20,088 bases of DNA from a virus: positions 1 to 20,088 of IMG/VR virus record IMGVR_UViG_3300012017_000124; one strand, 5' to 3'. Both the position numbers and the translations under genes were made by a program. Under the pieces are notes generated by a model. That model saw nothing but the letters and a program-made list of their open reading frames with translations, ran no database searches and was not told the origin of the DNA. This document shows, piece by piece, positions 2,288-20,088 of this stretch. Numbering within the stretch: the stretch's first letter is position 1; the number at the start of each line of letters is the position of its first letter.

Positions 2288-3337
2288 ATGAGTAATGAAC
2301 TATTAGCAAAAGCAGCTGAAGCAGGCACAACACTAACAGGTGGAATGACTGGCGCAGCAAACCCTACCGACGGAATTCACGTAGGTTCCGAGGGTAAGGG
2401 AGGCTTGCTCAATCCTGAGCAATCCGCAAGATTCCTTGATTACATGTTCGATGCAACAGTAATCGGTAAAGTAGCACGTACAGTTCGAATGAGAGCTGAC
2501 ACTACAGAGATTGATCGTATCGGCGTCGGAGAAAAGCTTATGAAGCTTGCATCTGAAGCAGAGAACACTGGCTCAAATGCAGCCGTACAGTTCTCAAAGA
2601 TTTCTCTCACAACAAAGAAACTTCGCCTAGATTGGGAGCTTTCAACTGAGTCTCTAGAAGACAACATTGAAGGTGCAGATCTAGAAGATCACATTGCAAG
2701 ACTCATGGCAACACAGGCTGGTAACGACCTAGAGGACGTAGTCCTTAACGGTAACACAGCACTATCTGGAGATAACCTTTATAAGGCATTCGACGGTATT
2801 GTCAAGATTGCAAAGACAAATGGTCGTGTAGTAGCTGGAGCGGGTGCAGGAGTATCTCGTGACATCTTCAACAAGGCTCTAAAGGCAATGCCACGTAAGT
2901 ACAAGCAGCGTCGTCCAGACCTACGCTTCCTTGCAGGCTCAAACCTTATACAAGATTACTTGTATTCAACTTCACAGAACATCCAGAACGTTAACCCACA
3001 AGATATTGCTTCAAGCATTATCCGTGGAAACGAAGGTGCTCTAGGTGGTCCAGCAGGATATGTTGCACCATTCGCATTTGGTATTCCAATTGTTGAAGTT
3101 CCACTACTTAAGGAAACTCAGGTAGGATCATATGCAACACCAACAGGAGAGCACGGAGACGTCCACTTGACATTCCCAAATAACGTTGTTATTGGTATCA
3201 AGCGCGATGTAACTGTTTACCGCTTCTTCTGGCCAAAGAAGGACTCAATCGAATATACAATGTATACTCGCGTTGGTACCCAAATTGAGCAGGCAGACGC
3301 ATGGGTAGTCGTTAAAGACGTTAAGGTTGCTTCTTAA
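2288..3337 (+). CDS. Major capsid protein, HK97 fold
   Basis: This 349-residue protein has features of HK97-fold capsid proteins: LLNPEQSARFLDYMFD near the N-terminus, the E-loop/spine-helix region with LEDHIARLMATQAGNDLED (about residues 130-150), and an A-domain segment GGPAGYVAPFAFGIPIVEVP (about 255-275). It builds the icosahedral shell. The start ATG has the moderate SD AAGGTGA (2274-2280) and lies 20 nt after the protease/scaffold stop, so the two genes share a transcript. Of 17 arginines, 14 use CGN codons, unlike the AGA-rich neighbours, which fits very high expression. A strong terminator follows. Residues 1-35 are flexible and glycine-rich and could be an N-terminal arm or a cleaved segment; no cleavage site can be assigned. 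Confidence 0.93.
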   Translation: MSNELLAKAAEAGTTLTGGMTGAANPTDGIHVGSEGKGGLLNPEQSARFLDYMFDATVIGKVARTVRMRADTTEIDRIGVGEKLMKLASEAENTGSNAAVQFSKISLTTKKLRLDWELSTESLEDNIEGADLEDHIARLMATQAGNDLEDVVLNGNTALSGDNLYKAFDGIVKIAKTNGRVVAGAGAGVSRDIFNKALKAMPRKYKQRRPDLRFLAGSNLIQDYLYSTSQNIQNVNPQDIASSIIRGNEGALGGPAGYVAPFAFGIPIVEVPLLKETQVGSYATPTGEHGDVHLTFPNNVVIGIKRDVTVYRFFWPKKDSIEYTMYTRVGTQIEQADAWVVVKDVKVAS

Positions 3338-3357
3338 TTTAAGAAATAACTTGCTGG

Positions 3358-3387
3358 AAAGGCCCCTAATTAATTTTAGGGGCTTTT
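3358..3387 (+). terminator. Intrinsic terminator after the major capsid gene
   Basis: The arms gcccctaa (3362-3369) and ttaggggc (3376-3383) form an 8-bp stem with a 6-nt loop. It is extended outward by a G-U pair and three A-U pairs (AAA 3358-3360 with TTT 3385-3387). The T-run gives the release tract. It lies 20 nt after the capsid stop codon. Confidence 0.85.
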
Positions 3388-3412
3388 CATTTTAATTTTA
3401 TAGTGCTATAAT
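3384..3412 (+). promoter_or_regulatory. Promoter for the connector/neck genes (extended -10)
   Basis: TGCTATAAT (3404-3412) is an extended -10 element. A weak -35 TTTTCA (3384-3389) lies 17 nt upstream inside the T-run of the terminator. The same nonamer TGCTATAAT occurs before the tail chaperone gene at 7475-7483. The SD AAAGGAG (3426-3432) and the ATG at 3440 follow. Confidence 0.65.
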
Positions 3413-3439
3413 TTATATACATACCAAAGGAGTATATAT

Positions 3440-3838
3440 ATGTCATTTGACACACTTAAGGTCAAAGAACTAAAGACATTAGCAGCGGACTTCGCAGTTG
3501 ATGTTGATGGCCTAAAAAATAAAGCAGATGTTATTGCAGCCCTAGCAGAAGAAGGAGTAACTTGGTCAGTTTACCAAGGTACACTTAAAAACATAGAGAA
3601 CGCAAAAGAAGACGCAGATGAAATTCTTCCTAGACTAGATCCAAATCAGAAGCTAGATGAAGATATGGTTCTAGTAAAAATGGATCGACCAAACTACAGA
3701 TACGATGCACTAGGTTTTACATTCACACTAGAGCACCCATTTGTAGCAATGAAGCCAGATGTGGCTCAAGAAATTTTTGATAAGGAGGAAGGGTTTAGAT
3801 TGGCTACACCTAGAGAAGTACAGGAGTACTACAACTAA
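3440..3838 (+). CDS. Small head protein with SAP/Rho-N-like N-terminal motif
   Basis: This is a 132-residue protein with a good SD (AAAGGAG, 7 nt before the ATG). Residues 5-40 (LKVKELKTLAADFAVDVDG...NKADVIAALAEEGV) have the two-helix pattern of the SAP/HeH/Rho N-terminal family, which often binds nucleic acid. The C-terminal half (about 70-132, including MVLVKMDRPNYRYDALGFTF and RLATPREVQEYYN) looks like a compact beta-rich domain without a recognised name. Genes of this size between capsid and connector commonly encode head decoration, head completion or connector-associated proteins. Its place as first gene after a fresh promoter groups it with the neck genes. The function is inferred from position; the SAP-like reading is moderate. 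Confidence 0.7.
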   Translation: MSFDTLKVKELKTLAADFAVDVDGLKNKADVIAALAEEGVTWSVYQGTLKNIENAKEDADEILPRLDPNQKLDEDMVLVKMDRPNYRYDALGFTFTLEHPFVAMKPDVAQEIFDKEEGFRLATPREVQEYYN

Positions 3839-6569: not shown

Positions 6570-6642
6570 TAGAACAGAGGAAAGGGCCTAGCCAGCCAAA
6601 TATATATATATCAATTTCATGAAATCAGGAGGCAATACAATT

Positions 6643-7404
6643 ATGGCATATCAAAATACAGGTGACGCAAGAAACATTCTTGTTGGTGCATCACCGCTAT
6701 TCTTGTCAGTAGAAGACTCAACAGTATCTGGTTACGATTCAAGCATGGATGCAGGCGACGCAAACGCTTTCGTTGCATCAAAGAATCGTTTCGTACCAGC
6801 ATTCTCATCAGGAGAGTCTTATACTACAACACTAAATAAAGTTTTAACAACAACAGGTGCTACTCAGACAGCAACGCCTACAGAGGCATCACCAGCAATT
6901 GGTGGAGCTTACCGTAACGTTGGTTACACAAATAACGGTCTACAGATCAGCTACCAGCCAACATTCGACTCAGTAACTGTTGATCAGTTGCTAGATACAG
7001 CTAAGCTGTTTAAGTCTGCAATGATGGTTCAGATCTCAACAGAAATGGCAGAAGGTACTCTAGAGAACGTTCTTGCAGTATTTGGTCAAAAGGGATCAAC
7101 ACTTACATCAGCAGGAACAGGTGCAACAGCAGTTGACACACTAGGTTTGGAAGCAGGTGCACTAGGTGCAGCTCCAACAGAGCGTCAGCTAATTGCAGTT
7201 GGACAGGCTCCAACTTCAGAGGCATCAGCAACTGAGCGTGTATATTATGCACGTCGTGTTTTGTCTGTAGAACAGTCACAGTTCTCTTTGGCTCGTACAG
7301 CAGCAACAACATTCCCAGTAACATTCCGTCTTCTACCATCAGGTGACGCAGCTCACGCTGGTTCAGAATACGGTAAGATTATTGACCGCGTTCTAACAGT
7401 TTAA
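6643..7404 (+). CDS. Major tail protein (tail tube subunit)
   Basis: The start is set at ATG 6643, with AGGAGG 10 nt upstream (6627-6632). A longer reading from ATG 6619 would put this SD inside the coding sequence and has no SD of its own. The 253-residue product begins MAYQNTGDARNILVG and has regularly spaced beta-strand segments, such as GGAYRNVGYTNNGLQISY and FPVTFRLLPSGD near the end, as in phage tail tube proteins that stack as hexamer rings. Of its 10 arginines, 9 use CGN codons, the same high-expression bias as the capsid gene. It has its own promoter and terminator, in keeping with a need for many copies per virion. Confidence 0.85.
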   Translation: MAYQNTGDARNILVGASPLFLSVEDSTVSGYDSSMDAGDANAFVASKNRFVPAFSSGESYTTTLNKVLTTTGATQTATPTEASPAIGGAYRNVGYTNNGLQISYQPTFDSVTVDQLLDTAKLFKSAMMVQISTEMAEGTLENVLAVFGQKGSTLTSAGTGATAVDTLGLEAGALGAAPTERQLIAVGQAPTSEASATERVYYARRVLSVEQSQFSLARTAATTFPVTFRLLPSGDAAHAGSEYGKIIDRVLTV

Positions 7405-7844: not shown

Positions 7845-8179
7845 ATTTAGCCGCTTTAGAGGGACAAGTTTTTCTTTTAGGACATTGGAAGAATTACGAG
7901 GAGTTAGAAGAGAATTTATCAATGCCAGAATTGATTCAGACCTTAACGGCAATGAATCAAAAAGAACATAACCAGAGAAAGTTTGCAGCATCACTAAAAG
8001 GAATCCAATTAGATGATGAAGCAGAAGAAAAAGAAAAAGGTTCTACCTTTGAAGATATCCAAAGAAGAGCTCTTGGAATTAAAACATCAGCAGATGATGT
8101 TGTTAGTTTGCAAGGACCCTTCGCAGCACAAGCTGGATTTGGAATAGGCGCAGGGTTAGGATACTCTAGGAGTAATTAG
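7512..8179 (+). CDS. Tail assembly chaperone, -1 frameshifted long form (GT-like)
   Basis: The gene reads 7512-7808 in the first frame, then slips -1 at CCCAAAC and continues from codon 7808 to TAG 8177-8179, giving 99 + 123 = 222 residues. The -1 frame is open only from 7793 because TAA at 7790-7792 closes it upstream, so the shift must fall between 7793 and 7842. The T part begins PNSGSGTGWSELDLAALEGQ and continues LLGHWKNYEELEENLSMPEL, with an acidic and basic helix around 7950-8060. This has no credible start of its own: the first ATG (7922) would cut off the conserved part. The stop overlaps the tape measure GTG start (TAGTG). This G/GT arrangement directly before the tape measure is universal in lambda-like siphophages. 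Confidence 0.88.
7802..7855 (+). promoter_or_regulatory. Programmed -1 ribosomal frameshift site: CCCAAAC plus stem
   Basis: The heptamer CCCAAAC (7802-7808) is in the right phase (C CCA AAC) for simultaneous slippage to CCC AAA. Five nt downstream, agcggc (7814-7819) can pair with gccgct (7850-7855) as a GC-rich 6-bp stem enclosing the zero-frame stop, at the spacing expected of a stimulatory structure. Pseudoknot potential of the 30-nt loop was not computed. Confidence 0.85.
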
Positions 8180-11100
8180 TGGCTGACGAACAAATTGTAA
8201 CCAGTATAGTCGCCAAAGCCGACTTATCTAGCCTTGTGTCCGAAGTACACAGGGCTAGTTCTAGTCTCCAACAATTACAAAGAGAGCTGCTTGCATCCAA
8301 CAAAGCAATCTCTGCTTCAACCAAATTAGCAAATAATTTATTTAGAGACACATTAACTAGTAGTGGACAGTTCTCTAGTCACTTCGTAAACCTTAATTCA
8401 GATGTAGATAAGTTTGGTAAAAACCTAGACGCTGGTAGATTAAAGCTTAAGAACTATTTCTCAACCTTTAGAGAGCATGCAACCACTCAAAAGGGAATGA
8501 TCAGAGAGCTTGCTAAAGAGCAAGTCATGCTTCAAAACTCAGTACTACAACCTTTAGGCAGAAATGCTCAAGGTTTAATGCAGTACAATGTTATGATTCC
8601 AAGAGGGCTAGATGCTGTAAAAAATAGTGCACAGCTAGCTCGTATGGAGCTACAGATAATGAATCGTGCACTATCTGAAGGAGCGGGATCTTTAATTAAC
8701 TGGGGTAAGAATACTCAGTGGGCAGGTCGTCAGCTTACAGTTGGCCTAACAGTGCCATTAACAATGTTTGGTGCTGCAGCAGGAAAAGCATTTAGAGAAG
8801 CAGACCAGGAGCTTGTAAGACTTACAAAGGTTTACGGTGGTCTAGCTGCAACATCTGCAGCAGACTTAAAAGCAATTAGAGAAGAAGTTGTACAGACAGC
8901 AAAGTCTTTATCTCAAACAATGGGAGCTTCTTTTAAAGATACAATTGCTTTAGGTGCAGATATTGCGGCAACTGGAAAGATGGGTAATGATCTTTTAGGT
9001 TCTATTGAAGAAACAACCAGATTGTCTATCCTTGGAGAAGTTGATAGACAAGATGCTATGAAGGCTACACTTTCAATTCAAACCGCATTTAAGCAGAATA
9101 CAGAACAACTTACAGAATCAATTAACTTTCTTAACGCAGTTGAAAACCAGACGTCTACAACTCTTAACGATTTAGTGGAAGCTATTCCAAAGGCTGGTCC
9201 CGTTATACAGCAACTAGGCGGAAGCATTGAGGATTTAGCTCTCTACATGACAGCAATGAGAGAGGGTGGTATCAATGCATCTGAAGGTGCAAACGCATTA
9301 AAGTCTGGACTTGCTTCTTTAATTAACCCTACAAAACAAACAGTAGGATTAATGTCAGATTTTGGAATAGATGTAATGGGAATGGTTGCAAAAAATACTG
9401 GAAACACAACTGGTCTCTTAATGGATTTGCAAGATGCGCTAGATAAACTAGATCCATTAAGCAAAGCAAGAGCATTAGAGCAGATGTTTGGTAAGTTCCA
9501 ATTTGCAAGAATGAGTGCGTTGCTTAATAACTTAGGAAAAGAAGGAAGCCAAACTCTTCAAGTTATGGATTTAATGAAAGCAAGTACTTCAGATTTGGCG
9601 GGAATAGCAGAGCGAGAATTAGGAATGATTACAGAGTCTGCATCTGGTAAATACAGAAAAGCAATGGAAACACTTAAAGCCACTCTGGCAGAAGTCGGTG
9701 AAGAGTTTTTAGGCGTTGCTACTAAGATTATCTCCGCTGCATCAAAGATTTTAAATTTCTTTACTGATTTGCCATCACCAATTAAAAAAGCTCTAACATT
9801 TATGGCAGGATTTACAGCATTAGTTGGACCACTAATTATGTTAACTGGTGTACTTGCGAACTTCTTTGGATACATAACAAAAGGAATAGTACAGCTTAGA
9901 TCTTTCTTTATGAGAGCAAGCGGATGGAAAATGCTTACGCCAGAAATTATTGCTGCTCAAAAAGCAGCAGAGATGGTTGAAAATGCATTCTATTCAGATG
10001 CAGCAGCCGCACAAGTCCTACACAATGCTTTACAAAAGCTTGTTTTAGATTATCAAAATTTGCAAGCAGCTTCAATGAAAAATGCAGTTCCAGTAAACCC
10101 AGGAGTTAGTACAGTTGCTGGAAATACAGTCATGGCAGCTGGTAGAAGAATTGTAGATCCTAATGATCCATATGTTGGAGATCCTAACACTAGAGCAATG
10201 TCTCATATTAGACCAAGAGATCCCAATAATCCAGCCACTTTGTTTGGCGGGGTCCCAGGAGCTATTCCAGTTAATAGAGGAATATCAAGAACTCCTCAAA
10301 TCTATATGCATGATAGACTTCCAAATGTTGAAGGACTAACAAGTGTTAAGGGAATATCTACAGGAATTGTTTCAGGAGAAGCCGCCAAATTCCATGCACT
10401 TATGGCAACACTTGGTATGCAAACAGAGCAAGAAGTTGCAGCACTAAAGAAAACTATTGCTATGGGCGGAACAGTAAGTAGAGAGCTGCTAGACACGTTT
10501 GACGATATTTTACCAATAACTCAAAAGTTTGCAAATAGTGCTGCTACGCAATCAGCATTAATTGTTCAGCAAATGAGAAATGCAGAAATAACTGTTGAGC
10601 AAGCAAAAGCAAGAATACTTGCTTTAAATGCACAAATAGAAGCAGACATGGGCGCTGCAGTAAGCATGTATGCTGCAGGACGAGGAAGAACAATTGATTT
10701 AACAAGAGCCCCAATGATGGATCAACCAGTTGTTGATGCTAATGGACAATTTACACTTAGAGATTTATACAAGAAAAAAGCAAACGCTTCTGTTATGGAA
10801 GAGTTTGGAAGACTTCGTGGCGTAAGAACATTTGGAGCACCATATAGTATTCAAACAACAAGGCTGCCTAAGTTTAATATCGGTGGAGTAGTTGAAGAAT
10901 TCGGACCAGGTAAAACAACAGTATCTGGCCCATCTTCAATTAACTATGATGACCGACTTGGAAGCGTACCAGTTGGTGGATATGTATTAAATCAATCTGC
11001 TTCAATGGATCCAGCAAACGCACCGCTTGTTGAAATGGCTGCAAATACATATGAAGGCGGCGGAAAAATCACAGCAGCTTTGACTCCATTGGAAACAGTT

Positions 11101-14100
11101 TTTGGTCCTAAGATTCAAAGAATGCCTGAGCTGTACGCAGCAGTAGATGCAGCAAATAACGGATATAATTTTGGCGGGCAGATTATGAATGGCATTACTG
11201 GATATGGAAGACAAACAGATAAGACTCCATCTTCTGGCATGGATGAAAAACTATTTAAAAAACAGTACAAAGAGTACTTAAGGTTTATTAATAATCCAAG
11301 ATATGAAGACGACATGAGAATAAGAATGATCATGTTGGATGCTGCAGAGCTATCTTATACTGCAAAAATGCCTATGGATAAAGCAATACAGAAAGCAACA
11401 TCTAATTTTGATGCTGCTAAATTATCATCAGGCGGATCTGATGAAAAGTTTATAGCAGAAAGAATAAAGCAAGTAAAGGCTTTAGAGAGAAAGTATCCAG
11501 CATTAAGAGTTAAAAATGCTAAATCTGCTCAGACAAGTTCTAGCAAAGCTCTCAATTGGAATTTAAATAAAGTTAGAGAAGCAATGATTCTTGATCCACA
11601 ATTTGCTTTAGTAAAAGATTTAATAGAAGGTGTTAAGCCAACAACATTTTTAAATGCAGATGGTTCTCCAAGTATTAAGGACTTGCATGACAGGGGGCAC
11701 ATAAGACGTCGAGGTACACTTGGCTATATGACCAGCGGTTACATGGGAACAGCTGCTATATTGCCTTCCGCAGTAAACAGTATCATGAGCAGGCTGGAAG
11801 GAATTGGATTATCAAGAGATGTTCTAAATTTAAACGGTGCTAACGCAAGAGCAAACTTTGAACTAGCATTAAAGCGTACAGGAATGGATAAGTTCACAAC
11901 AGTGGATGATCTCTATGCGGCAGTACAAGACGATGGAAAGTTTAAGAGCAAAGATCAAATATCTTCTGGCAATGTTGTAAGAGCAACCAAAGAGCAAAGA
12001 AATTCTTTAAAAATGTTTTTAGAGGCTGCGGCAAAAAGACAAAGATGGGCATTTTTAGGAAGACCTCCAAGACCCATGCTTGTAGCAGGAGCATACAATA
12101 AGGGCGGAATGATTCCAGGTGGCTCTATCTCTTCAAATAGATTTTCATATGGAGTTCCACCTCTATCCCCAAGACTAGAGGCTATTAGATTAGCTCAACA
12201 GGCTGCAAATGCTAAAAAGCGTGAGTCCGATATGATTAAGTACCCATGGATTAAAGAAGCCGTAGCGGGAAGGAACAGGGGATCTAGTGTATCCCCATTA
12301 TTAAAATTACTACCGCCAGAAAAGATGCTTGATGTTTTAACAACAGCAAAAACATTAAGCTCGAGAAGTTCACTAGGTTCGTTTGCTGATACACCAGTAA
12401 CTCAATACGGACATCAAATTTCTGCTAGTTCTGGTATGAGTTACCCCATACCTGGCGTATCTGGAATATATAAAATTGGGGGCAGACGAGTTTTTGTTAA
12501 AGGCGTTCCTAATGAATTAACTGCAATCCATGAGCCAATTGGAACCGATATTACAAGAAGGCTTTTTGGAATAGAGTCTCCAGTCCAAAGAGCGAGAACA
12601 GTGGTCAATCCGTTAGATCCAAGTAGGAAAAGTAAGCTCCTTGCTTTAGAATCAGACTTTGACCCGCGTTTTGGCAAAACTAATGTAGAGATGAATGAAG
12701 ATCAAGTAATTAGACAGCTTGCTAATTCTCTTCTCATGAACAATAAAGATTTATCTAGGTCAAACGTATTTGGTAATTTTAATCCAGATGTTGGAAATGC
12801 TGGAGTGTTTAAAGCAGCATCTGGTAATACACGTCTGGCAACAGCTGATGAAATGAACTCTATGGAAAAGCAAGCAATGATTAATCTACTTGCTGTTAGA
12901 GGCGGAGCAAGAAAAGATTTTGCCCGTGATACTGCTTCAATAGTCAGTAAGATGAGCCCAAAAAAATATGGTCGATTGATGAAGACCACACTAGAAAAAG
13001 CTCGTCCAGAATTAGTAAAAATAATAAATGAATTGCCTGTAGGTCTTAGAAAACCGTATGAAGCAATGCTCAAGAGATTGGATGACGGAATAGGTGTTGA
13101 TTGGAGTAAATATCATTCTATACACTCTAATCCAAAATATCTTAATGCTGGAGGGCCAGTTGGAGGCCCAGTTCGAAAAGGACGTAATGCTTACGGAAGG
13201 CCAGGAAACCCAGCTGCTAGAGCAGCATGGGAGGCTGAGAAACGTGCACAAAGAGAAAGAGATTCGAGGGCCGCAGCCTCTAGAGCTGCATCTCATCAAG
13301 TTTACGGTCAGCAAGCATTAACAAGTGGAACAGGAAGAGAAGCTGTAAGAACAGGAACAACATCATTTTATAATCCAGGCTCAGCAATTCAACAGTCTAT
13401 GATGCAACCATTAAGAAATGCATCATTTATGTACACTGGACATCTCAATGCTCTTTCAAAATCAATTGCATCTTCATTAATAAATGGAAGTGCAATTCTA
13501 CAGGCTTCCGCTAAAACATCTGGATCTTATATTGTTGGAGCCTATAAAGATTCTGCACGTAGAATAATTAATTCTGCAAGGGTGCAACATGCTACGGTTA
13601 AACAATATATGGCTACGCTTCAAGCAGCTGGAGGAATTTTTGCAAATGGGGTTAGGGCTGAAAATGCTGGAAGATTGGGACAGGCTTACCCAGGAATGTA
13701 TGGAACAGATCCTAGAACTGGAATGCCTATAAATCTTGCTACTGGAAAACCAGTAGGAATGATGACTGGCCCAGCACTTATTGGTGGATACAAACCAGTA
13801 GCGGGTCAAGAAGGTATGCTCCAGCGCAAAGTTGGAACCCTTGGTATGAGAAAGACGGAGTATTTAAATACGTCAACTGGTGAGTCTACAAAAATGTCTG
13901 CTTCACAAGCAAGAGCTGCAGGTATTGCCCAACCTCGCATAATGGGAATGGGTGCTCAAATGGGAGTGGGCATGGCTGGATCAATGGCTGGTATGGCTTT
14001 GATGAGCAAAGAAAAAGTTAAGATTGCAGGCACAGAAATGTCAGGAATGACTGCTGGAACGGCAGTATCGTTTGGAAGCATTTTACTTACCATGCTGCCA

Positions 14101-17100
14101 ATTGTTAAGATGCTAGATAAAATTAAAGCAGGAGCTGCTTCAGCTAACAAAGGTTTTACAGCATTAAGAACAGGTGTTCTAAGCTTTACTCAGATTGCAC
14201 AAAAGGCTTTAATGGTATTAAAGGGTTTTGGACTAGTTGGAGCAGCTATAGCAGCTGCAAGTATAGGATTTAAACTTTATAAAGATTATAAAGATGCTCA
14301 GCAAGATGCAACAATGGGTCTTTCTATGACAGCAAAGGCCGCAGAGCAAGCTGGAGTAAAGTATTTCAATCTTAAAGAAACAATGCAAGATTATATAGAC
14401 AAGTCAAAGCTTGCTGCCGCAGCTGCTAAAGGCTCGGTAGGAAACACAATTGGAATGCCTGGTTTACCTAGATCTATAGAAGAGCTAAAAAAGGCTAAAG
14501 AAGAAGGTAAAGCCCTAAAAGATTTAATTGAATCTCTTAACAGATCTGAAAGCACTGAAGAAACACAAAGATTAATTAATAACCAAAAGGCACAAATGGT
14601 TGCTGCTGGAATGAGTATTGAAGAAGCAAATAAAAAGATTTATGGCGCATTAGCAAATAGCAATAAATCTAAACAGGCATATCAATTGTTAGCAGATCAA
14701 GGTTTTGGAGCAATTGTAGATAAATCATCTGCAGCAGAATTTGCAGTTGGAAATTTAGTAAACACTTTATCCAGGGGTGCTGGCACAGCTGACTGGCATA
14801 AAGAAGTTGGAAACGGATTTGAAGGTCTTATAAATGTATTCCAGAATGCTACCTCATCTTTAATTGGAACAAAGGATGCTCTAGGAAATGTTATTGATGA
14901 ATATAAAGCTTATGAAATAGTGATGTCTAAAGCAGAGACAAGTAACCCAGGAATTAATAAAGAAATTGGACAAGAAGCGTACGACAACTTAGCAAAAACA
15001 CAGCCCCTCTTAGCTACAATTGCAAATAAATCAGATAGCATTAAGGGAATTCTTGCAAAATGGAAGTTGTTTACTTCTGGAATAAATATTGATTTAAGCA
15101 AGATTGATTCCACTTTAGCAATAAAATTAGCTGGGTTTACATCAGCAATTGGAACAGGAATTTCTGAGTTAACTAAAGCTGCTGACAACGCTACAACATA
15201 TGGCAGAGTGGGCAAAGCTCTAACTGCACTTCAGAAAACAATTGCAGCAACTTCAGCAGCTGCACAAAGAGCAAACGCTGCCTCACAAAGAAGTGCACAA
15301 GAAGAGCTAAAGACAATTGCTAAAAAGATTAAGCTTATTGAAGATGAAAAAAACAAAAAGTTAGAATCTTTAAGAGCAACTCAAGATGCATCAAACTATG
15401 CATTGGAGCTACAAAAGCTTCAGATTGAATATGCTGATGCAGTATCTCGTGGAGATATGGCAACAGCCGCAAGAGCAAGAATAGATATAGATCAGCTAAC
15501 CTTAAACAGACAGAGTGAGTTGGCCGTAAAGGCAATTGAAGATGCAGCAAACAAAGCAAAAAAGCCTTTAGAGAAGGATGCAGAAGGAATATCAGATAGA
15601 CAAGACAAAAAGAATGTTGTTTTCCAAAACAATCAGGATAATTCCGCAGTAGCTGGCGAAACAATGACAGTCATTACTGACTTTCAAACAAAATATAATG
15701 ATTTAAGTACAAGAGCAATTAATGCAAAGTTGCTTCCTGATAAAGAAAGAGCAGCGGAAGAAGCAAAACTTACTTTAGAGCTTGTAGCTCTTGTTAAAGA
15801 AATTCAAAAAGCTGGTTCTGGAAACACAACATCTGCAAAAACAGTAAGAGAGGCATTTGCTCCCTACTTTGATAAAAATGGAAAGCCAATATCTCCTGAA
15901 ACCAAAACTTCTGGATCTCCAGTCGGATTTGATAAAAATGGTAAGCCTATATTTTCAAGCACTATAACAGCTAATAAAGGTATTACAGATGTATTCAAGG
16001 CCGATATTGAAGCGGTAACGGCACTGGCAACTGCAATTACTGGAAAAGTAACAATTAAACAACTTCGTGATGACATTGTGGCTGCGTTAGGTAACTACAA
16101 AGAAGGAAAGACACCAAAGGGAACAGTTGAATTTGGACCAGATAAAGTTCAGCAGGGTGCAGGAAAAAATGCAATAGAAGCCGCTCAAAAAGCAAGAGCT
16201 TCTGGCTCTTCAAAGATGGTAAGCATTAATGATGTTGTTTGGTATAGATTTAGATGGAACGGCAATGATTATATAAGTAATGATTCTGGAACAGAAGTTT
16301 ATTCATGGGATGACGAGAAAAAAACTAAGGGTGCTAGAGTTAAGAAGGCCAACGGAGGATTAGTTAAAAGATTTGCTCCAGGCGGAAAGGTTAGTGGTCC
16401 AGGAACTCCTACATCTGATTCAATTCCTGCAATGCTTTCAGATGGAGAATATGTACTTAGTGCAAAGGCCGTAGATGCCGCTGGTGGACCAGATGTTGTT
16501 GACGCTTGGCACAAAGCACTTAGAAAGAAAGATGGCGGACCAATCGCTTCATGGATGAAGCCAAGGTCTCCTTATGACTCCAAGAATAATCCTACTGGAA
16601 GCCCATACGGAAGATATTGGGGAGAGCTGGAGAGACTTTATCAGCAATCACCAATGGGCTTTGGTAAAAATGGAAGGCCAGTATTTAACAACGCTGGAAA
16701 AGACCCATGGGGAGGAACAGAAATACCAGGCCTCGCATTCAATGGTAAGGTGGCAGACTTCTCAGACTACTTCCACCAATTAGCAGAGCAGCCAAGGAAA
16801 TATAGAGGTTGGGGAATGGGCATAGACAAGAGCCCAGATCGTTACGCAGGCTCAGGTGCCTCTATGGGTGGCATTGGCAGCGGTGCTTACGGAGCAATTA
16901 ACTCTATGTTTATGGCGGACGGCGGAATCGTAAAGCCTACATTAGGAAAGCCTGATGCAAATCAATCATTTATAAATAAATTAATTTTTGGAAATAAATA
17001 TATTGGCGGCAATATGGAACGTGTTCAAGCAGAAGTGCCATTTGGCCCAGGAAATTTTGCTAAAATGGCAAAGCTTGGATATGAATTAAAGTATTCTAGC

Positions 17101-17673
17101 GAAGGATCTCTTCATGTACTAAGAGCTATTAAAGAAGGTAAAGAGGTTGCTTATTTAACGTGGGACAAGATTACTAATGTTGTAGAGTCACTTGAAGTAA
17201 ATTCACTGCATAGATTAAAAGGACTTGCCACTGCAATGTATAAATCTGCAAGAGAAATTTCTCCAATTACACATAGCCCATATAGAACTCCAGCAGGAGA
17301 TGCTTTTGCCCATAAAGTTGGAGATAAGGTAACTGCGTTAAACGATAGTTGGTTACCAGGAGATTGGTCTATTGATTTATTGAAAAAAGCAGCGGAAAGA
17401 GCAGCAGAGCACATTCCTAAATTTGAAAATGGAATTAACATGGTTCCTGCAGATATGCTGGCATTGCTTCATAAGAATGAAGCTGTTCTCCCAGCTAATA
17501 TGAACCCATTTAATCCAAATGCATCGGCGGCAGCAACAGGATCAGTATATAATATTAGTGTAGAATTAAATGGAACTAATGTAACAGCACAAGATGTTGC
17601 AACTCAAATACATAGAGAGATGAGGCTTAAAGAAATGGCCGCTGGAGTAAATAGAAGGGTTGGTCAGCCATGA
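8179..17673 (+). CDS. Giant tape measure protein with embedded enzyme-like modules
   Basis: GTG 8179 follows AGGAG (8168-8172) at 6 nt and overlaps the chaperone stop. The product has 3164 residues. Residues 1-600 form the tape-measure core of TP901/PhageMin_Tail type (NWGKNTQWAGRQLTVGLTVP near 175-195), with a hydrophobic segment at about 535-566. More hydrophobic segments lie near 1955-1975 and 2015-2035, and a charged coiled coil at about 2370-2480. The SDSIPAMLSDGEYVL motif at 2746-2760 and the ALLHKNEAVLPANM motif near the C-terminus are recurrent tape-measure features. Inserted are an unrecognised module (about 1003-1305), a kinase-like domain (about 1421-1642) and a GNAT-like domain (about 2946-3051). 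The protein sets tail length, fills the tail tube and is ejected with the DNA. Arginine codons are mostly AGA. The stop overlaps the next start as ATGA. Confidence 0.93.
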   Translation: MADEQIVTSIVAKADLSSLVSEVHRASSSLQQLQRELLASNKAISASTKLANNLFRDTLTSSGQFSSHFVNLNSDVDKFGKNLDAGRLKLKNYFSTFREHATTQKGMIRELAKEQVMLQNSVLQPLGRNAQGLMQYNVMIPRGLDAVKNSAQLARMELQIMNRALSEGAGSLINWGKNTQWAGRQLTVGLTVPLTMFGAAAGKAFREADQELVRLTKVYGGLAATSAADLKAIREEVVQTAKSLSQTMGASFKDTIALGADIAATGKMGNDLLGSIEETTRLSILGEVDRQDAMKATLSIQTAFKQNTEQLTESINFLNAVENQTSTTLNDLVEAIPKAGPVIQQLGGSIEDLALYMTAMREGGINASEGANALKSGLASLINPTKQTVGLMSDFGIDVMGMVAKNTGNTTGLLMDLQDALDKLDPLSKARALEQMFGKFQFARMSALLNNLGKEGSQTLQVMDLMKASTSDLAGIAERELGMITESASGKYRKAMETLKATLAEVGEEFLGVATKIISAASKILNFFTDLPSPIKKALTFMAGFTALVGPLIMLTGVLANFFGYITKGIVQLRSFFMRASGWKMLTPEIIAAQKAAEMVENAFYSDAAAAQVLHNALQKLVLDYQNLQAASMKNAVPVNPGVSTVAGNTVMAAGRRIVDPNDPYVGDPNTRAMSHIRPRDPNNPATLFGGVPGAIPVNRGISRTPQIYMHDRLPNVEGLTSVKGISTGIVSGEAAKFHALMATLGMQTEQEVAALKKTIAMGGTVSRELLDTFDDILPITQKFANSAATQSALIVQQMRNAEITVEQAKARILALNAQIEADMGAAVSMYAAGRGRTIDLTRAPMMDQPVVDANGQFTLRDLYKKKANASVMEEFGRLRGVRTFGAPYSIQTTRLPKFNIGGVVEEFGPGKTTVSGPSSINYDDRLGSVPVGGYVLNQSASMDPANAPLVEMAANTYEGGGKITAALTPLETVFGPKIQRMPELYAAVDAANNGYNFGGQIMNGITGYGRQTDKTPSSGMDEKLFKKQYKEYLRFINNPRYEDDMRIRMIMLDAAELSYTAKMPMDKAIQKATSNFDAAKLSSGGSDEKFIAERIKQVKALERKYPALRVKNAKSAQTSSSKALNWNLNKVREAMILDPQFALVKDLIEGVKPTTFLNADGSPSIKDLHDRGHIRRRGTLGYMTSGYMGTAAILPSAVNSIMSRLEGIGLSRDVLNLNGANARANFELALKRTGMDKFTTVDDLYAAVQDDGKFKSKDQISSGNVVRATKEQRNSLKMFLEAAAKRQRWAFLGRPPRPMLVAGAYNKGGMIPGGSISSNRFSYGVPPLSPRLEAIRLAQQAANAKKRESDMIKYPWIKEAVAGRNRGSSVSPLLKLLPPEKMLDVLTTAKTLSSRSSLGSFADTPVTQYGHQISASSGMSYPIPGVSGIYKIGGRRVFVKGVPNELTAIHEPIGTDITRRLFGIESPVQRARTVVNPLDPSRKSKLLALESDFDPRFGKTNVEMNEDQVIRQLANSLLMNNKDLSRSNVFGNFNPDVGNAGVFKAASGNTRLATADEMNSMEKQAMINLLAVRGGARKDFARDTASIVSKMSPKKYGRLMKTTLEKARPELVKIINELPVGLRKPYEAMLKRLDDGIGVDWSKYHSIHSNPKYLNAGGPVGGPVRKGRNAYGRPGNPAARAAWEAEKRAQRERDSRAAASRAASHQVYGQQALTSGTGREAVRTGTTSFYNPGSAIQQSMMQPLRNASFMYTGHLNALSKSIASSLINGSAILQASAKTSGSYIVGAYKDSARRIINSARVQHATVKQYMATLQAAGGIFANGVRAENAGRLGQAYPGMYGTDPRTGMPINLATGKPVGMMTGPALIGGYKPVAGQEGMLQRKVGTLGMRKTEYLNTSTGESTKMSASQARAAGIAQPRIMGMGAQMGVGMAGSMAGMALMSKEKVKIAGTEMSGMTAGTAVSFGSILLTMLPIVKMLDKIKAGAASANKGFTALRTGVLSFTQIAQKALMVLKGFGLVGAAIAAASIGFKLYKDYKDAQQDATMGLSMTAKAAEQAGVKYFNLKETMQDYIDKSKLAAAAAKGSVGNTIGMPGLPRSIEELKKAKEEGKALKDLIESLNRSESTEETQRLINNQKAQMVAAGMSIEEANKKIYGALANSNKSKQAYQLLADQGFGAIVDKSSAAEFAVGNLVNTLSRGAGTADWHKEVGNGFEGLINVFQNATSSLIGTKDALGNVIDEYKAYEIVMSKAETSNPGINKEIGQEAYDNLAKTQPLLATIANKSDSIKGILAKWKLFTSGINIDLSKIDSTLAIKLAGFTSAIGTGISELTKAADNATTYGRVGKALTALQKTIAATSAAAQRANAASQRSAQEELKTIAKKIKLIEDEKNKKLESLRATQDASNYALELQKLQIEYADAVSRGDMATAARARIDIDQLTLNRQSELAVKAIEDAANKAKKPLEKDAEGISDRQDKKNVVFQNNQDNSAVAGETMTVITDFQTKYNDLSTRAINAKLLPDKERAAEEAKLTLELVALVKEIQKAGSGNTTSAKTVREAFAPYFDKNGKPISPETKTSGSPVGFDKNGKPIFSSTITANKGITDVFKADIEAVTALATAITGKVTIKQLRDDIVAALGNYKEGKTPKGTVEFGPDKVQQGAGKNAIEAAQKARASGSSKMVSINDVVWYRFRWNGNDYISNDSGTEVYSWDDEKKTKGARVKKANGGLVKRFAPGGKVSGPGTPTSDSIPAMLSDGEYVLSAKAVDAAGGPDVVDAWHKALRKKDGGPIASWMKPRSPYDSKNNPTGSPYGRYWGELERLYQQSPMGFGKNGRPVFNNAGKDPWGGTEIPGLAFNGKVADFSDYFHQLAEQPRKYRGWGMGIDKSPDRYAGSGASMGGIGSGAYGAINSMFMADGGIVKPTLGKPDANQSFINKLIFGNKYIGGNMERVQAEVPFGPGNFAKMAKLGYELKYSSEGSLHVLRAIKEGKEVAYLTWDKITNVVESLEVNSLHRLKGLATAMYKSAREISPITHSPYRTPAGDAFAHKVGDKVTALNDSWLPGDWSIDLLKKAAERAAEHIPKFENGINMVPADMLALLHKNEAVLPANMNPFNPNASAAATGSVYNISVELNGTNVTAQDVATQIHREMRLKEMAAGVNRRVGQP
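11185..12093 (+). other. Tape measure module of unknown function (residues about 1003-1305)
   Basis: This mostly helical, highly charged segment lies between the glycine-pair motifs YNFGGQI (residue 996) and YNKGGMI (residue 1306). It contains DLHDRGHIRRRGTLGYM, which could be a metal or active-site loop, and helices such as QVKALERKYPALRVKN and RGVVRATKEQ-like regions rich in Lys/Arg. It does not look like a tape-measure coil. No family is recognised. Confidence 0.45.
12439..13104 (+). other. HipA/PI4-kinase-like domain inside the tape measure (residues about 1421-1642)
   Basis: Key kinase-fold landmarks occur in order with sensible spacing: a glycine-containing strand pair GVSGIYKIGGRR followed by VFVKG with Lys1441 (ATP lysine position); helix AIHEPIGTDITRRLFGI with Glu1452; the loop NNKDLSRSNVFG with Asp1524 and Asn1529 (D-x4-N, the spacing of HipA and PI3/4-kinase catalytic loops); and NPDVGNAGVFKAASG with Asp1537 in the place of the metal-binding Asp. 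The conserved pattern D-x-G-x-A-x-x-F-[KR]-A resembles phage-associated kinase-like proteins of this superfamily. A helical tail follows. The fold assignment is inference from motif order; activity is unknown. Confidence 0.5.
15868..15954 (+). repeat. Tandem FDKNGKPI repeat in the tape measure
   Basis: The octapeptide FDKNGKPI is encoded at 15868-15891 and again at 15928-15951, exactly 60 nt (20 codons) apart. A diverged copy, FGKNGRPVF, is encoded at 16660-16686. Codons differ slightly between copies (GGA/GGT, CCA/CCT), so this is an old duplication or a structural motif rather than a recent DNA repeat. Confidence 0.6.
17014..17331 (+). other. GNAT acetyltransferase-like domain inside the tape measure (residues about 2946-3051)
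   Basis: The segment has GNAT order: strands SLHVLRAIKEG and KEVAYLTW, strand SLEVNSLHR leading into the acetyl-CoA pyrophosphate loop R3012-L-K-G3015-L-A3017 (R/Q-x-x-G-x-G/A), then helix ATAMYKSAREIS and a C-terminal THSPYRTPAGDAFAHKVG. The last motif is very like the HS..RT..G..wa..vg end seen in many actinobacterial GNAT proteins. It lies between MADGGIV (residue 2912) and FENGINM (residue 3082). Fold assignment is fairly good; substrate is unknown. Confidence 0.65.
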
Positions 17674-18263
17674 GTTTTCAAAATTTAACTAAGAGTTCAA
17701 TTCTATATATAGAAGCACTAGACCCATTTGCAATTGATCCTGCTACTAATTCATTTGATTATAAAGGTGCAACTGTAGTTGCACCAGGAAATACATACGA
17801 TGCTACAACTGCAAATAGAAATGGTCTGGCGTGGAATAATAAAACAACTGCAACAAAATTTAGAAGAGTAACTGAGCACAACAGATCCCCTCTGTCTCTT
17901 AGTGTTAATAGAATTGAAACTGGTCAAAGAATGGCAAATGGAACCATGAGGAAGTACTTTGTTGCAGATAAACTAAATATAAATGTATCTTGGGAAATGA
18001 TTCCATCTTTTAGAAATGAAACAGTAGATGGTGGATGGGGCGCAGAAGATTTAAAAAACTTTTATGAAAGTGCTGCAGGCCGTGGAGCATTTCGTATTAA
18101 GCTAAACCCAACAGTATTTGATAAGGATCTTGTAGAACAGGCTGACGGGGCTTTAGCAGACGATTACACATACACTGTAATGTTTGCATCATGCGATTTT
18201 ACTGTTCTTAAAAGAGGATTACAGCCTTTCTGGAGTGTTAATATATCACTGGAGCAAGTATGA
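17670..18263 (+). CDS. Minor tail protein, distal-tail candidate
   Basis: This 197-residue protein starts at an ATG overlapping the tape measure stop by four bases (ATGA), with GAAGGG (17654-17659) as SD 10 nt upstream. It has beta-rich segments, such as KLNINVSWEMIPS in the middle and DYTYTVMFASCDFTVLKRG then PFWSVNISLEQV at the end. In siphophages the gene after the tape measure is usually the distal tail protein, the hexameric ring joining the tube to the tip, and the size and beta content fit. No family-specific motif is certain, so the call rests mainly on position. Confidence 0.6.
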   Translation: MSFQNLTKSSILYIEALDPFAIDPATNSFDYKGATVVAPGNTYDATTANRNGLAWNNKTTATKFRRVTEHNRSPLSLSVNRIETGQRMANGTMRKYFVADKLNINVSWEMIPSFRNETVDGGWGAEDLKNFYESAAGRGAFRIKLNPTVFDKDLVEQADGALADDYTYTVMFASCDFTVLKRGLQPFWSVNISLEQV

Positions 18264-20088
18264 TATCTGTTTCAAATACAACAAAAGATCTTCTTAAAAA
18301 AAGCTCTGCTATTTCAACTTCAGCAGGAGCAACATTTGAATATAACTTAAACTCAATGGTTGAGTATATAAAGGCAACATCTTCCGCATTAACAAATACA
18401 TACACAAATGCCTTTAAAAAACTTTTTCCAATAGACACTATCTATAAACCATTTAGACCATTATCTCCAGGAATTAAATATCTGGTACATACAGATAATA
18501 ATACCGATACCCCTTTAAACTCATTTGAAAGACCAAGAGATGTTAATATGGGAACAAAGCCTAGACTATATTATCCTGGCCCAGACATGGTGTATAAATA
18601 TTGGCTTGCACCTAAAAATACAAATATCGATATTTCTTTAGAATACTTTTCAGATGAAGCAAAGACTGTAGCAAAGTTAGTTCCTGCCAACAAGATCATT
18701 GCTAGATTTGAAACTAGTCACGACACGCCAGTATCTTGGGTAATATCTGTAGTTAAGCAAGACAACTCAGTTCTAAACGTACCTGGCACTTTTATTAATC
18801 CAAATAACGGTGAGGCAACAATATATTACAATGGAACTACATGGTTAGCAATGACTTCAACTACACCGCCTCCTACATATACAACAACTGAATATCTAAA
18901 GAAGATATCCTTAACTGCAGTTAATTCAAATACTGGCAAGTTAATTGGTGTTATTGAGTTTAGTCCAAGATGGGTTATTTCTGTAGACTCAGACATAATA
19001 AGCTTTCTTATAAACAAGGAAACAACTTCAGACAATTCTTCAATTGTCCCAGTTGGATTAATAACAGCAAACTATTTAAATATTTCTTTAATGAAGCCCC
19101 GTACAACATCTACTGCTATTGTTGAATATAATAGAAAATCGGATATTGATAACACAAAGATATACCTGTTTAAGAATGTCATGGTTAATCCTTATTTAAA
19201 TATTGGTAACGGAATAACTTCAGAAAAGGTAATCCAGGGAACATTTTATATTAACGAATGGACACTATCTGAATTTGGAGAAGCAACTATAGATGCTACA
19301 GATGCAGCAAAAATTCTTCAAGATACATTATGCCCTCAGTTATTAATACAAGGCTCTCCAATAACTGCAATTATAAAAAGAATACTGGACTCAGTTGGAT
19401 TTTCTAATTATAAGATTAATGTTAAAAAGAGCGCAGGAATAGTTAGTGATGATTCAATACCATCAATTGCATATTGGTGGTCAGATGGAGATAAAACAGT
19501 TTGGGATGTTCTTCAGGAGCTTTGTAGAGATATTCAGATGAACGCATTCGTAGATGAATATAATGTTTTAAACTTTTACAGCAGAAACTTTATATATGAT
19601 GACACTATTGAGCCACAGTGGACATTTACTAGCGAAGAAATAAAGACAGGGTCTACAGTAAATTATTATCCAAATATTATTAGCCTAAATTCAAAAGAAA
19701 TATCTTCAGCAAACCAGGTAAGAGTTAGATATTCAACCGCTTTTGTTTCAACTAACCAGCAGTCATCATCGCCATTATGGAAATCAAGCGAGTCGTTTCT
19801 TGGAGCTGGATCCCTTGCAACTGATATTACAGACTCAAGCACAATGTTTCAGCTTAATCCTAACACTATAAACACTGCAAGACCTGATAAAGTCTTAGAT
19901 GCATTTAGCGGATACGTTTTAATTAATGATGAAATTATTGAGTATGAAGGCTTATGGTATCAGTATGTTCCAGCATCTGGAGGACCTGCACTTCCAGTTC
20001 TAATTAAAAATCAATCAGATATTTATAAATATTCAGCCATATCAAAATCAGGATATAAAAACTTCTACCCAACAGGACAATATAATAT
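18260..20088 (+). CDS. Tail hub / tail-associated protein, N-terminal part (3' truncated by window edge)
   Basis: The ATG at 18260 overlaps the previous stop (ATGA) and has GGAG (18251-18254) 5 nt upstream. The frame is open to the right edge, giving at least 609 residues. It begins MISVSNTTKDLLKKSSAIST. Around residues 407-435 lies WWSDGDKTVWDVLQELCRDI followed by NAFVDEYNVLNFYSRNF, a pattern typical of the hub (gp27/Tal-like) domain of phage tail tips, where a short helix precedes a beta hairpin. Beta-rich segments follow (VRVRYSTAF, VLINDEIIEYEG). Such proteins close the tail tip and carry receptor-binding or peptidoglycan-degrading parts in their C-termini, which are outside this window. 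Confidence 0.7.
   Translation, partial: MISVSNTTKDLLKKSSAISTSAGATFEYNLNSMVEYIKATSSALTNTYTNAFKKLFPIDTIYKPFRPLSPGIKYLVHTDNNTDTPLNSFERPRDVNMGTKPRLYYPGPDMVYKYWLAPKNTNIDISLEYFSDEAKTVAKLVPANKIIARFETSHDTPVSWVISVVKQDNSVLNVPGTFINPNNGEATIYYNGTTWLAMTSTTPPPTYTTTEYLKKISLTAVNSNTGKLIGVIEFSPRWVISVDSDIISFLINKETTSDNSSIVPVGLITANYLNISLMKPRTTSTAIVEYNRKSDIDNTKIYLFKNVMVNPYLNIGNGITSEKVIQGTFYINEWTLSEFGEATIDATDAAKILQDTLCPQLLIQGSPITAIIKRILDSVGFSNYKINVKKSAGIVSDDSIPSIAYWWSDGDKTVWDVLQELCRDIQMNAFVDEYNVLNFYSRNFIYDDTIEPQWTFTSEEIKTGSTVNYYPNIISLNSKEISSANQVRVRYSTAFVSTNQQSSSPLWKSSESFLGAGSLATDITDSSTMFQLNPNTINTARPDKVLDAFSGYVLINDEIIEYEGLWYQYVPASGGPALPVLIKNQSDIYKYSAISKSGYKNFYPTGQYN

Follow-up and report, generated by a model that had tools for sequence, protein, structure and literature searches.

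The largest gene (8179..17673, + strand, GTG start) of the 20,088-base IMG/VR virus record that forms the window analysed here encodes a tape measure protein (TMP) of 3164 amino acids, and this protein contains a predicted kinase-fold domain (residues ~1396-1652; 12364..13134, + strand). The explanation favoured here, which we regard as moderately probable, is that the domain is an active kinase-fold effector, an exchangeable cargo of the TMP of a Stanwilliamsviridae-like actinophage, delivered with the TMP at infection. The computational analysis yielded the predicted fold, an invariant catalytic set, purifying selection, the occurrence of the domain in TMPs, its presence or absence among related TMPs, and an ADP-ribosyltransferase (ART)-like module in the same slot of relatives. 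The activity of the kinase domain and its delivery at infection are plausible, resting on conservation, modularity and the published ejection of TMPs.

Relatives of the domain were gathered from IMG/VR by one single-sequence scan and four profile scans, with at most 80 kept per scan; relatives numbered 306 among 349 pattern stretches in one of the last two profile scans and 348 among 403 in the other. The 307 locus records obtained, which include the window and in which contigs recur between scans, gave 105 different domain sequences. These were reduced to 69 representatives that share less than 92% identity and reach down to 35% identity to the window. AlphaFold2 applied to the 69-row alignment returned a predicted local distance difference test score (pLDDT) of 93.5 and a predicted template-modelling score (pTM) of 0.91, with all five models at 90 or above. 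In the model, two short helices are followed by a strand, a Gly/Pro-rich loop, two strands, a long helix, two further strands, a helix, the catalytic loop and the C-terminal helices (residues 1562-1650). The placement of the key residues is kinase-like: the lysine is in the third strand, the glutamate in the next helix, and D-x4-N and the second aspartate in the loop behind the long helix that comes next. A two-lobed atypical kinase fold of the PI3/4K-HipA-CotH type is thus predicted over the whole domain. The initial annotation had proposed a HipA/PI3-4-kinase-like domain at residues 1421-1642; the kind of fold agrees with the model and with its structural matches to HipA, type II phosphatidylinositol 4-kinase (PI4K-II) and actin-fragmin kinase, while those bounds begin after strand 1 and stop before the last helix is complete.

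The structural matches were obtained with VIA-align, which re-scores Foldseek's own list and for which a best Z of 7-8 is common in models without a clear match. The 50 entries listed had Z values of 7.9-11.6 and were all, by title or recall, of the PI3/4K, HipA, CotH, Fam20C or actin-fragmin kinase sort; LepB, with its N-terminal part, and an unnamed ‘kinase with AMP-PNP’ are among them. The highest score belonged to the CotH spore-coat kinase of Bacillus cereus (PDB 5jd9; Z 11.6, root-mean-square deviation 4.0 over 213 residues), which has a similar two-lobed fold but shares 12% identity with the phage domain and is not part of a phage TMP. It was followed by CtkA (PDB 3akk; Z 11.0), PI4K-II beta (9.9), HipT (PDB 7ab5; 8.7), PI3K/VPS34 (8.7), HipA (PDB 2wiu; 8.5) and actin-fragmin kinase (8.3). 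For the predicted model, the top rows exceed the warning level of Z ~8 and the list is uniform, and the view that the segment is a complete two-lobed kinase-fold enzyme domain of the PI3/4-kinase-HipA-CotH sort is supported by the modelling. The nearest predicted virus structures were a 1201-residue portal-labelled protein (E 5.6e-5), an unnamed protein (5.8e-4) and an ADP-ribosyltransferase-labelled protein (1.7e-3), the source being a tailed phage wherever one is named. The best viral matches of the model thus include very large proteins from uncultured tailed phages that bear portal and ADP-ribosyltransferase labels (BFVD A0A6J5S481 and A0A6J5PWC9). Because the BFVD matches are to phage proteins so labelled, folds related to the modelled one may also be carried by other virion proteins, head proteins included.

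The five positions on which the initial annotation relied are present as numbered in the frame 8179-17673, and its claim that all the main polar positions are kept extends to 69 of 69 relatives. These positions (all on the + strand) are Lys1441, the candidate ATP-binding lysine (12499..12501; third strand, residues 1436-1443); Glu1452, the candidate helix-C glutamate (12532..12534; helix 1446-1463); Asp1524 and Asn1529 of the D-x4-N catalytic-loop candidate that follows helix 1507-1519 (12748..12765; codons 12748-12750 and 12763-12765); and Asp1537 of the D-V-G stretch, a candidate DFG-like metal site (12787..12795; codon 12787-12789). A D-x4-N followed by an aspartate is also the order in HipA. 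Each of the five is invariant, so that the lysine, the glutamate, D-x4-N and the second aspartate are both present and conserved throughout. The S-x-G-x-S-x-P-x-P-G loop between strands 1412-1416 and 1429-1433 of the model (residues 1416-1427; 12424..12459, + strand) is a nucleotide-loop candidate, in which G1419, S1421, P1423 and G1426 are likewise invariant in all 69. The five positions had been named in advance from a single sequence. Among the 63 K/E/D/N positions of the 274-residue segment, six are invariant in the 69 relatives, namely the five and N1569; the probability of all five lying within these six by chance is 8.5e-7, rising to 5.4e-6 if the residue type has to agree as well. In five TMP pairs, the ratio of non-synonymous to synonymous substitution rates (dN/dS) was 0.19-0.30 in the kinase domain, compared with 0.04-0.08 in the N-terminal core of the TMP, 0.17-0.27 in residues 1951-2400 and 0.35-0.47 in the stretch directly behind the domain; the values are rough, as some dS exceed 1. 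Because of the ratios of 0.19-0.30, the kinase domain is considered to be under purifying selection, weaker than that on the TMP core.

The assignment of the carrier protein is based on its N-terminal TMP profile (PF10145, E 5.5e-28; PHROG 10030, E 4.1e-117) and its position within a tail gene order shared with four Stanwilliamsviridae phages. A TMP N-terminus was present in all 294 kinase locus records with an intact 5′ end of the open reading frame (ORF) and in 9 of 13 with a cut 5′ end. The kinase domain starts at TMP residues 650-1430, near 1,400 in the window's own clade. TMPs were also sampled by the N-terminal core alone, in one search with the window sequence and one with a Streptomyces sequence first (best 80 of at least 600 each, the lists overlapping). 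This gave 115 distinct TMP ORFs, 71 of them complete. Nine of the complete ones carry the kinase (2649-3938 amino acids) and 62 do not; the latter are mostly of ~2,100 amino acids, with four at 3,220-3,834, and two (1022 and 1179 amino acids) are possibly split or broken ORFs. In one relative (L347), the TMP is found in two ORFs (1022 and 1918 amino acids), with an ART-like module in the second. The kinase was not detected in the TMPs of four Streptomyces phages (2075-2100 amino acids; best profile score 1.5 bits, E 0.031). Homologous TMPs lacking the domain, with which the initial annotation had suggested a comparison, therefore exist. A clean case is the pair of L415, with the kinase, and L384, without it, which are 59% identical over residues 3-1291, 47% over 1671-1809 and 49% over 1986-2762, whereas residues 1292-1670 of L415 (~380 residues) face ~31 residues in L384. 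The net presence or absence thus amounts to ~350 residues between conserved flanks. Glycine-rich linkers stand upstream (residues 1309-1320; 12103..12138, + strand) and downstream (residues 1656-1668; 13144..13182, + strand) of the kinase domain in the window; a linker resembling the upstream one is found at the insertion border of the L415-L384 pair, and one resembling the downstream one (LNAGG-VGG-VRKG) in the ART-bearing TMP of L435. When 124 TMP cores were placed on a tree, a minimum of five gains or losses was required to explain the kinase, compared with a shuffled mean of 41, and the module is for that reason described as clustered but mobile; the tree is a quick one in which some long branches leave placements unsure. 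The kinase domain is an optional, exchangeable module of the TMP.

In 12 TMP ORFs the slot (residues 1236-1656 in whole ORFs) is occupied by an ART-like domain. Its motifs follow the order typical of ADP-ribosyltransferases of the R-S-E class. When 10 of the 12 domains were aligned, R-G, one S and E-x-E proved invariant, and as simple patterns R-G-I/V occurs in 9 of 12, RRSSWS in 10 and E-x-E in all; an example is L435:13592-14347, with the motifs R-G, S and E-x-E. The 12 ART-like and the 159 kinase-bearing ORFs do not overlap. An apparent co-occurrence of the two in 32 ORFs was rejected as a ~32-residue match to a generic TMP motif; the filter of 120 residues that removed it left the 12 ART-like ORFs. 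On the tree of TMP cores, the ART-like module needs 8 changes for 8 rows, no better than shuffled. The 162 complete TMP ORFs gathered, a sample biased to the kinase, comprise 100 with the kinase, 9 with the ART-like module and 53 with neither, of median lengths 3128, 2501 and 2139 amino acids, respectively. Other cargo was also observed. Pfam matches in 14 kinase-bearing TMPs were to CHAP (3/14) and to OmpA, HAD acid-phosphatase, RuvA_C and UBA_6 (1/14 each), with a PHROG polynucleotide kinase match in 1/14; among 16 kinase-less TMPs they were to LysM (2/16) and to NlpC/P60, OmpA and CHAP (1/16 each).

Sequence-family searches did not name the domain. No Pfam, PHROG or NCBIfam model names it in the 69 relatives, in which matches were scattered and weak. 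Pfam gave for the window segment CSTF2_hinge alone (E 0.078), and among the relatives DUF4473 (7/69, best E 0.014) and AOC_like (7/69, best E 0.018), neither of which matched the window. Matches to N-acetylmannosamine-6-phosphate epimerase (NCBIfam; 11/69, best E 0.0016) and to adenylate kinase (1/69, E 0.053) were not credited, the window being unmatched in both cases. HipA_C (PF07804) did not match the window at E 10, with controls matching in 5 of 14 genomes, four of them over the cut-off, and was not listed for any of the 69 relatives at E 5; hhalign of the domain alignment (A5) against one single HipA sequence gave a probability of 0.2%. PF00454 was equally without a match in the window at E 10, with a weak control that matched just 1 of 14 genomes, below the cut-off, and was absent from the families listed for the 69 relatives. 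For CotH, the Pfam-A profile was missing both from the 24 families that the 69 relatives brought up (E 5) and from the 12 listed for 39, in a comparison without a positive control. PDB sequence searches with the kinase domain found no kinase; matches to ribosomal uL14/L23, catalase, uteroglobin (E 0.009), eL8 and others were taken as noise. Two scans of cellular genome contigs, which sense near relatives only, gave 53 and 61 pattern stretches and no relatives. No isolated phage matched at E 1 in tblastn searches with four domain queries (the window, L062, L149 and L277), no plasmid matched one query, and the PADLOC defence profiles gave no match for three kinase segments and the C-terminal stretch of the window.

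How might the domain act? It is proposed that it would bind ATP and a metal ion and transfer a phosphoryl, or possibly an adenylyl, group. As a segment of the TMP it would ride in the tail, leave together with that protein when the phage infects, and refold in the host cytoplasm or on the inner side of the membrane, where it would modify a host target at the onset of infection, ahead of phage gene expression. The proposed role would be comparable to that of T4 Alt (by ADP-ribosylation) or of the T7 kinase (by phosphorylation). According to published work, ejected TMPs become inserted in the membrane of the host (PMC13277306). For JBD30, exit with the C-terminus foremost has been proposed, and T5 is described as expelling a C-terminal domain (PMC11445458); refolding has been proposed for Sle1 (PMC13277306). 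Delivery with the TMP followed by immediate host modification is inferred from TMP ejection, from the TMP-related effectors of Streptomyces and from polyvalent proteins. The functional claim is plausible and gains support from the modularity, from a second host-modifying domain type in the slot and from the actinobacterial precedents of TMP-related effectors.

Several points weigh against this explanation. A folded domain of ~30 kDa should not fit the tail tube; since it would hardly pass, transport would have to occur unfolded or near an end. Kinase activity is a prediction, and no sequence profile ties the domain to a kinase family. The spacing of Asp1524 and Asp1537 is 13, below the figure of about 18-23 in HipA or PI3K. 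Foldseek alone is weak: its best match is CtkA, with E 1.8e-3, probability 0.98 and a template-modelling score of 0.34-0.40, and the rows below are mostly ordinary protein kinases at low probability and one designed protein. CtkA was the top match for both models, with the first model (14 sequences, pLDDT 75) giving E 2.2e-4, so that the better model gave the weaker value. The ART identity, too, is based on motifs and one sub-threshold Pfam match (ADPrib_exo_Tox, E 0.076) in one of five segments, the other four having none.

A broader claim, which we advance tentatively and with somewhat less confidence than the explanation favoured above, is that actinophage TMPs would be a general effector-delivery chassis, with a fixed ruler core and a cargo slot exchanging kinase, ADP-ribosyltransferase and other enzymes, several copies of which would be injected per virion before gene expression. 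The kinase would then be a new family reprogramming the host, through its proteins or even phosphatidylinositol, in the first moments of infection. Alternatively, an active kinase could work in the producing cell during tail assembly, phosphorylating itself or tail components, and be merely carried in the virion. CotH, the top VIA-align match, is a stand-alone spore protein that phosphorylates spore-coat proteins, and the phage domain occurs in a late structural protein in every record with an ORF start; these facts are consistent with an assembly kinase. However, the 62 of 71 sampled TMPs and the four Streptomyces phages that manage without a kinase, as well as the ART-like domain that can take the slot instead, for which a part in assembly would be hard to explain, render this alternative unlikely. 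To the same low degree we would credit a kinase fold with another chemistry or substrate, such as AMP transfer, as in SelO, or lipid (phosphatidylinositol) phosphorylation. Actinobacteria make phosphatidylinositol, PI4K-II is among the best structural matches, and two hydrophobic segments (residues 1958-1979 and 2011-2029; 14050..14265, + strand; Kyte-Doolittle means of 1.63-1.93 over 19 residues) stand ~300 residues downstream of the kinase domain and are, by their composition, a possible membrane-inserting part. Nothing specific speaks against such a function, and the substrate cannot be read from fold matches. That the domain is a pseudokinase, a catalytically dead structural or binding domain that plugs the tail, serves there as a folded stop, or binds a host factor, is quite improbable: it would agree with activity being a prediction and with the very short hairpin between N1529 and D1537, which has one bridge in the model, but a dead enzyme would hardly need the invariant K, E, D, N and D down to 35% identity. 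Finally, that there is no kinase at all and the motifs match by chance or artefact, as the silence of the profile libraries could suggest, is ruled out for practical purposes by the confident two-lobed AlphaFold2 model, the kinase-type VIA-align list and the invariance test.

The favoured explanation, a TMP-borne effector, can be compared with known systems. The polyvalent proteins (Iyer et al., 2017; PMC5512222) are phage proteins of many domains, kinases, ARTs and GNATs among them, that are described as injected. They resemble it in that a large multidomain protein, believed to enter the cell along with the DNA, includes a kinase domain; however, their kinases are of the Ser/Thr/Tyr type without the C-terminal subdomain, and ‘tape measure’ does not occur in that paper. 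The Streptomyces contractile-system effectors Tme and Sle1 are TMP-like, actinobacterial and equipped with an exchangeable functional domain; Tme carries an endonuclease domain (PMC11126660), and the relatives of Sle1 carry diverse, exchangeable active domains (PMC13277306). They differ in belonging to bacterial contractile systems and in their C-terminal endonuclease or other domains, and the word ‘kinase’ does not occur in PMC13277306. The HipA-family kinase of Gratiaviridae is a HipA-like kinase of tailed phages amid structural genes, but is encoded by a separate gene between the portal and capsid genes and not in a TMP (PMC8008677). The MuF-VIP2 fusions of Microbacterium phages likewise join a host-modifying enzyme type to an actinophage virion protein, although in this case an ADP-ribosyltransferase to a head protein (PMC7302621). 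In comparison with CtkA, HipT and HipA, whose fold is similar, the phage domain is embedded in a TMP, with tail genes, judged by gene order, as its neighbours in the window, where a HipA-type kinase would have a HipB antitoxin partner, and shows neither a HipA_C match nor a profile link to one E. coli HipA sequence; the PI4K and PI3K/VPS34 lipid kinases are similar in fold and differ in that, against a weak control, the phage domain gave no PF00454 match. No report of a kinase domain inside a TMP was found in the literature searched, subscription journals and bioRxiv being outside coverage; in one paper both terms occur, for separate genes (PMC8876498). A virion-borne, probably injected effector is thus already a known kind, and it is the combination of carrier, a phage TMP, and enzyme class that is probably without a report in that literature.

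The phage is probably Stanwilliamsviridae-like and of Actinobacteria. The gene order of the window is that of the Streptomyces phages Wakanda, Gilson, Yaboi and Blueeyedbeauty, the four Stanwilliamsviridae examined. Profile matches identified a portal (2-898), a major capsid protein (2288-3337), a tail-tube-like protein with an immunoglobulin domain (6619-7404) and a minor tail protein (18260-20086); apart from these and the TMP, the genes of the window are named by order alone. The major capsid protein shares 62-63% identity with those of Stanwilliamsviridae Streptomyces phages (among the 15 matches listed), and Streptomyces phages make up 127 of the 212 records matching in its search. The conserved N-terminal core of the TMP (residues 155-702; 8641..10284, + strand) is 33-38% identical to the TMPs of Streptomyces phages among the 30 matches listed of 545 matching records, and phages of Staphylococcus, Gordonia and Enterococcus also occur among those records. 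WhiB genes are characteristic of Actinobacteria and of the phages that infect them, and one was present in all 11 large kinase-bearing contigs chosen for testing. Because of this and of the likeness of the genes to those of Streptomyces phages, the hosts of the kinase-bearing phages are probably Actinobacteria, perhaps of freshwater.

Other parts of the TMP were also observed. The module directly upstream of the kinase (residues 1001-1290; 11179-12048) is fast-evolving, with 25-76% identity in five pairs, and HxxR and P-x-x-x-N patterns appear in the majority consensus of 14 TMPs; an EndA-like nuclease, suggested by DRGH at residue 1171, was dropped, since DRGH occurs in 3 of 159 kinase-bearing TMP ORFs and in none of 110 others. 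A C-terminal GNAT-acetyltransferase-like module (residues 2895-3064; 16861..17370, + strand) is tentative: PF00583 (E 0.17, below the cut-off) was the sole Pfam match and a PDB sequence search gave none, and the module is barely alignable in 3 of 5 relatives compared. Open frames on the minus strand opposite the kinase domain (12702-13073 and 13012-13314) show no sign of being genes and are probably shadow frames.

The presented data suggest tail rulers as carriers of injected tools. What ejected TMPs do beyond opening the envelope and guiding DNA is the question that the kinase module addresses, and a conserved module that relatives may acquire, drop or exchange for an ART-like one in a single slot offers a direct test of the role of the ejected TMP. 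As no isolated phage carrying the kinase domain was found, such early effectors would otherwise be out of reach. If the favoured explanation is correct, a phosphorylating tool would be added to the virion-carried factors of host takeover, and phage TMPs would be linked to the TMP-related effectors of actinobacterial contractile systems.

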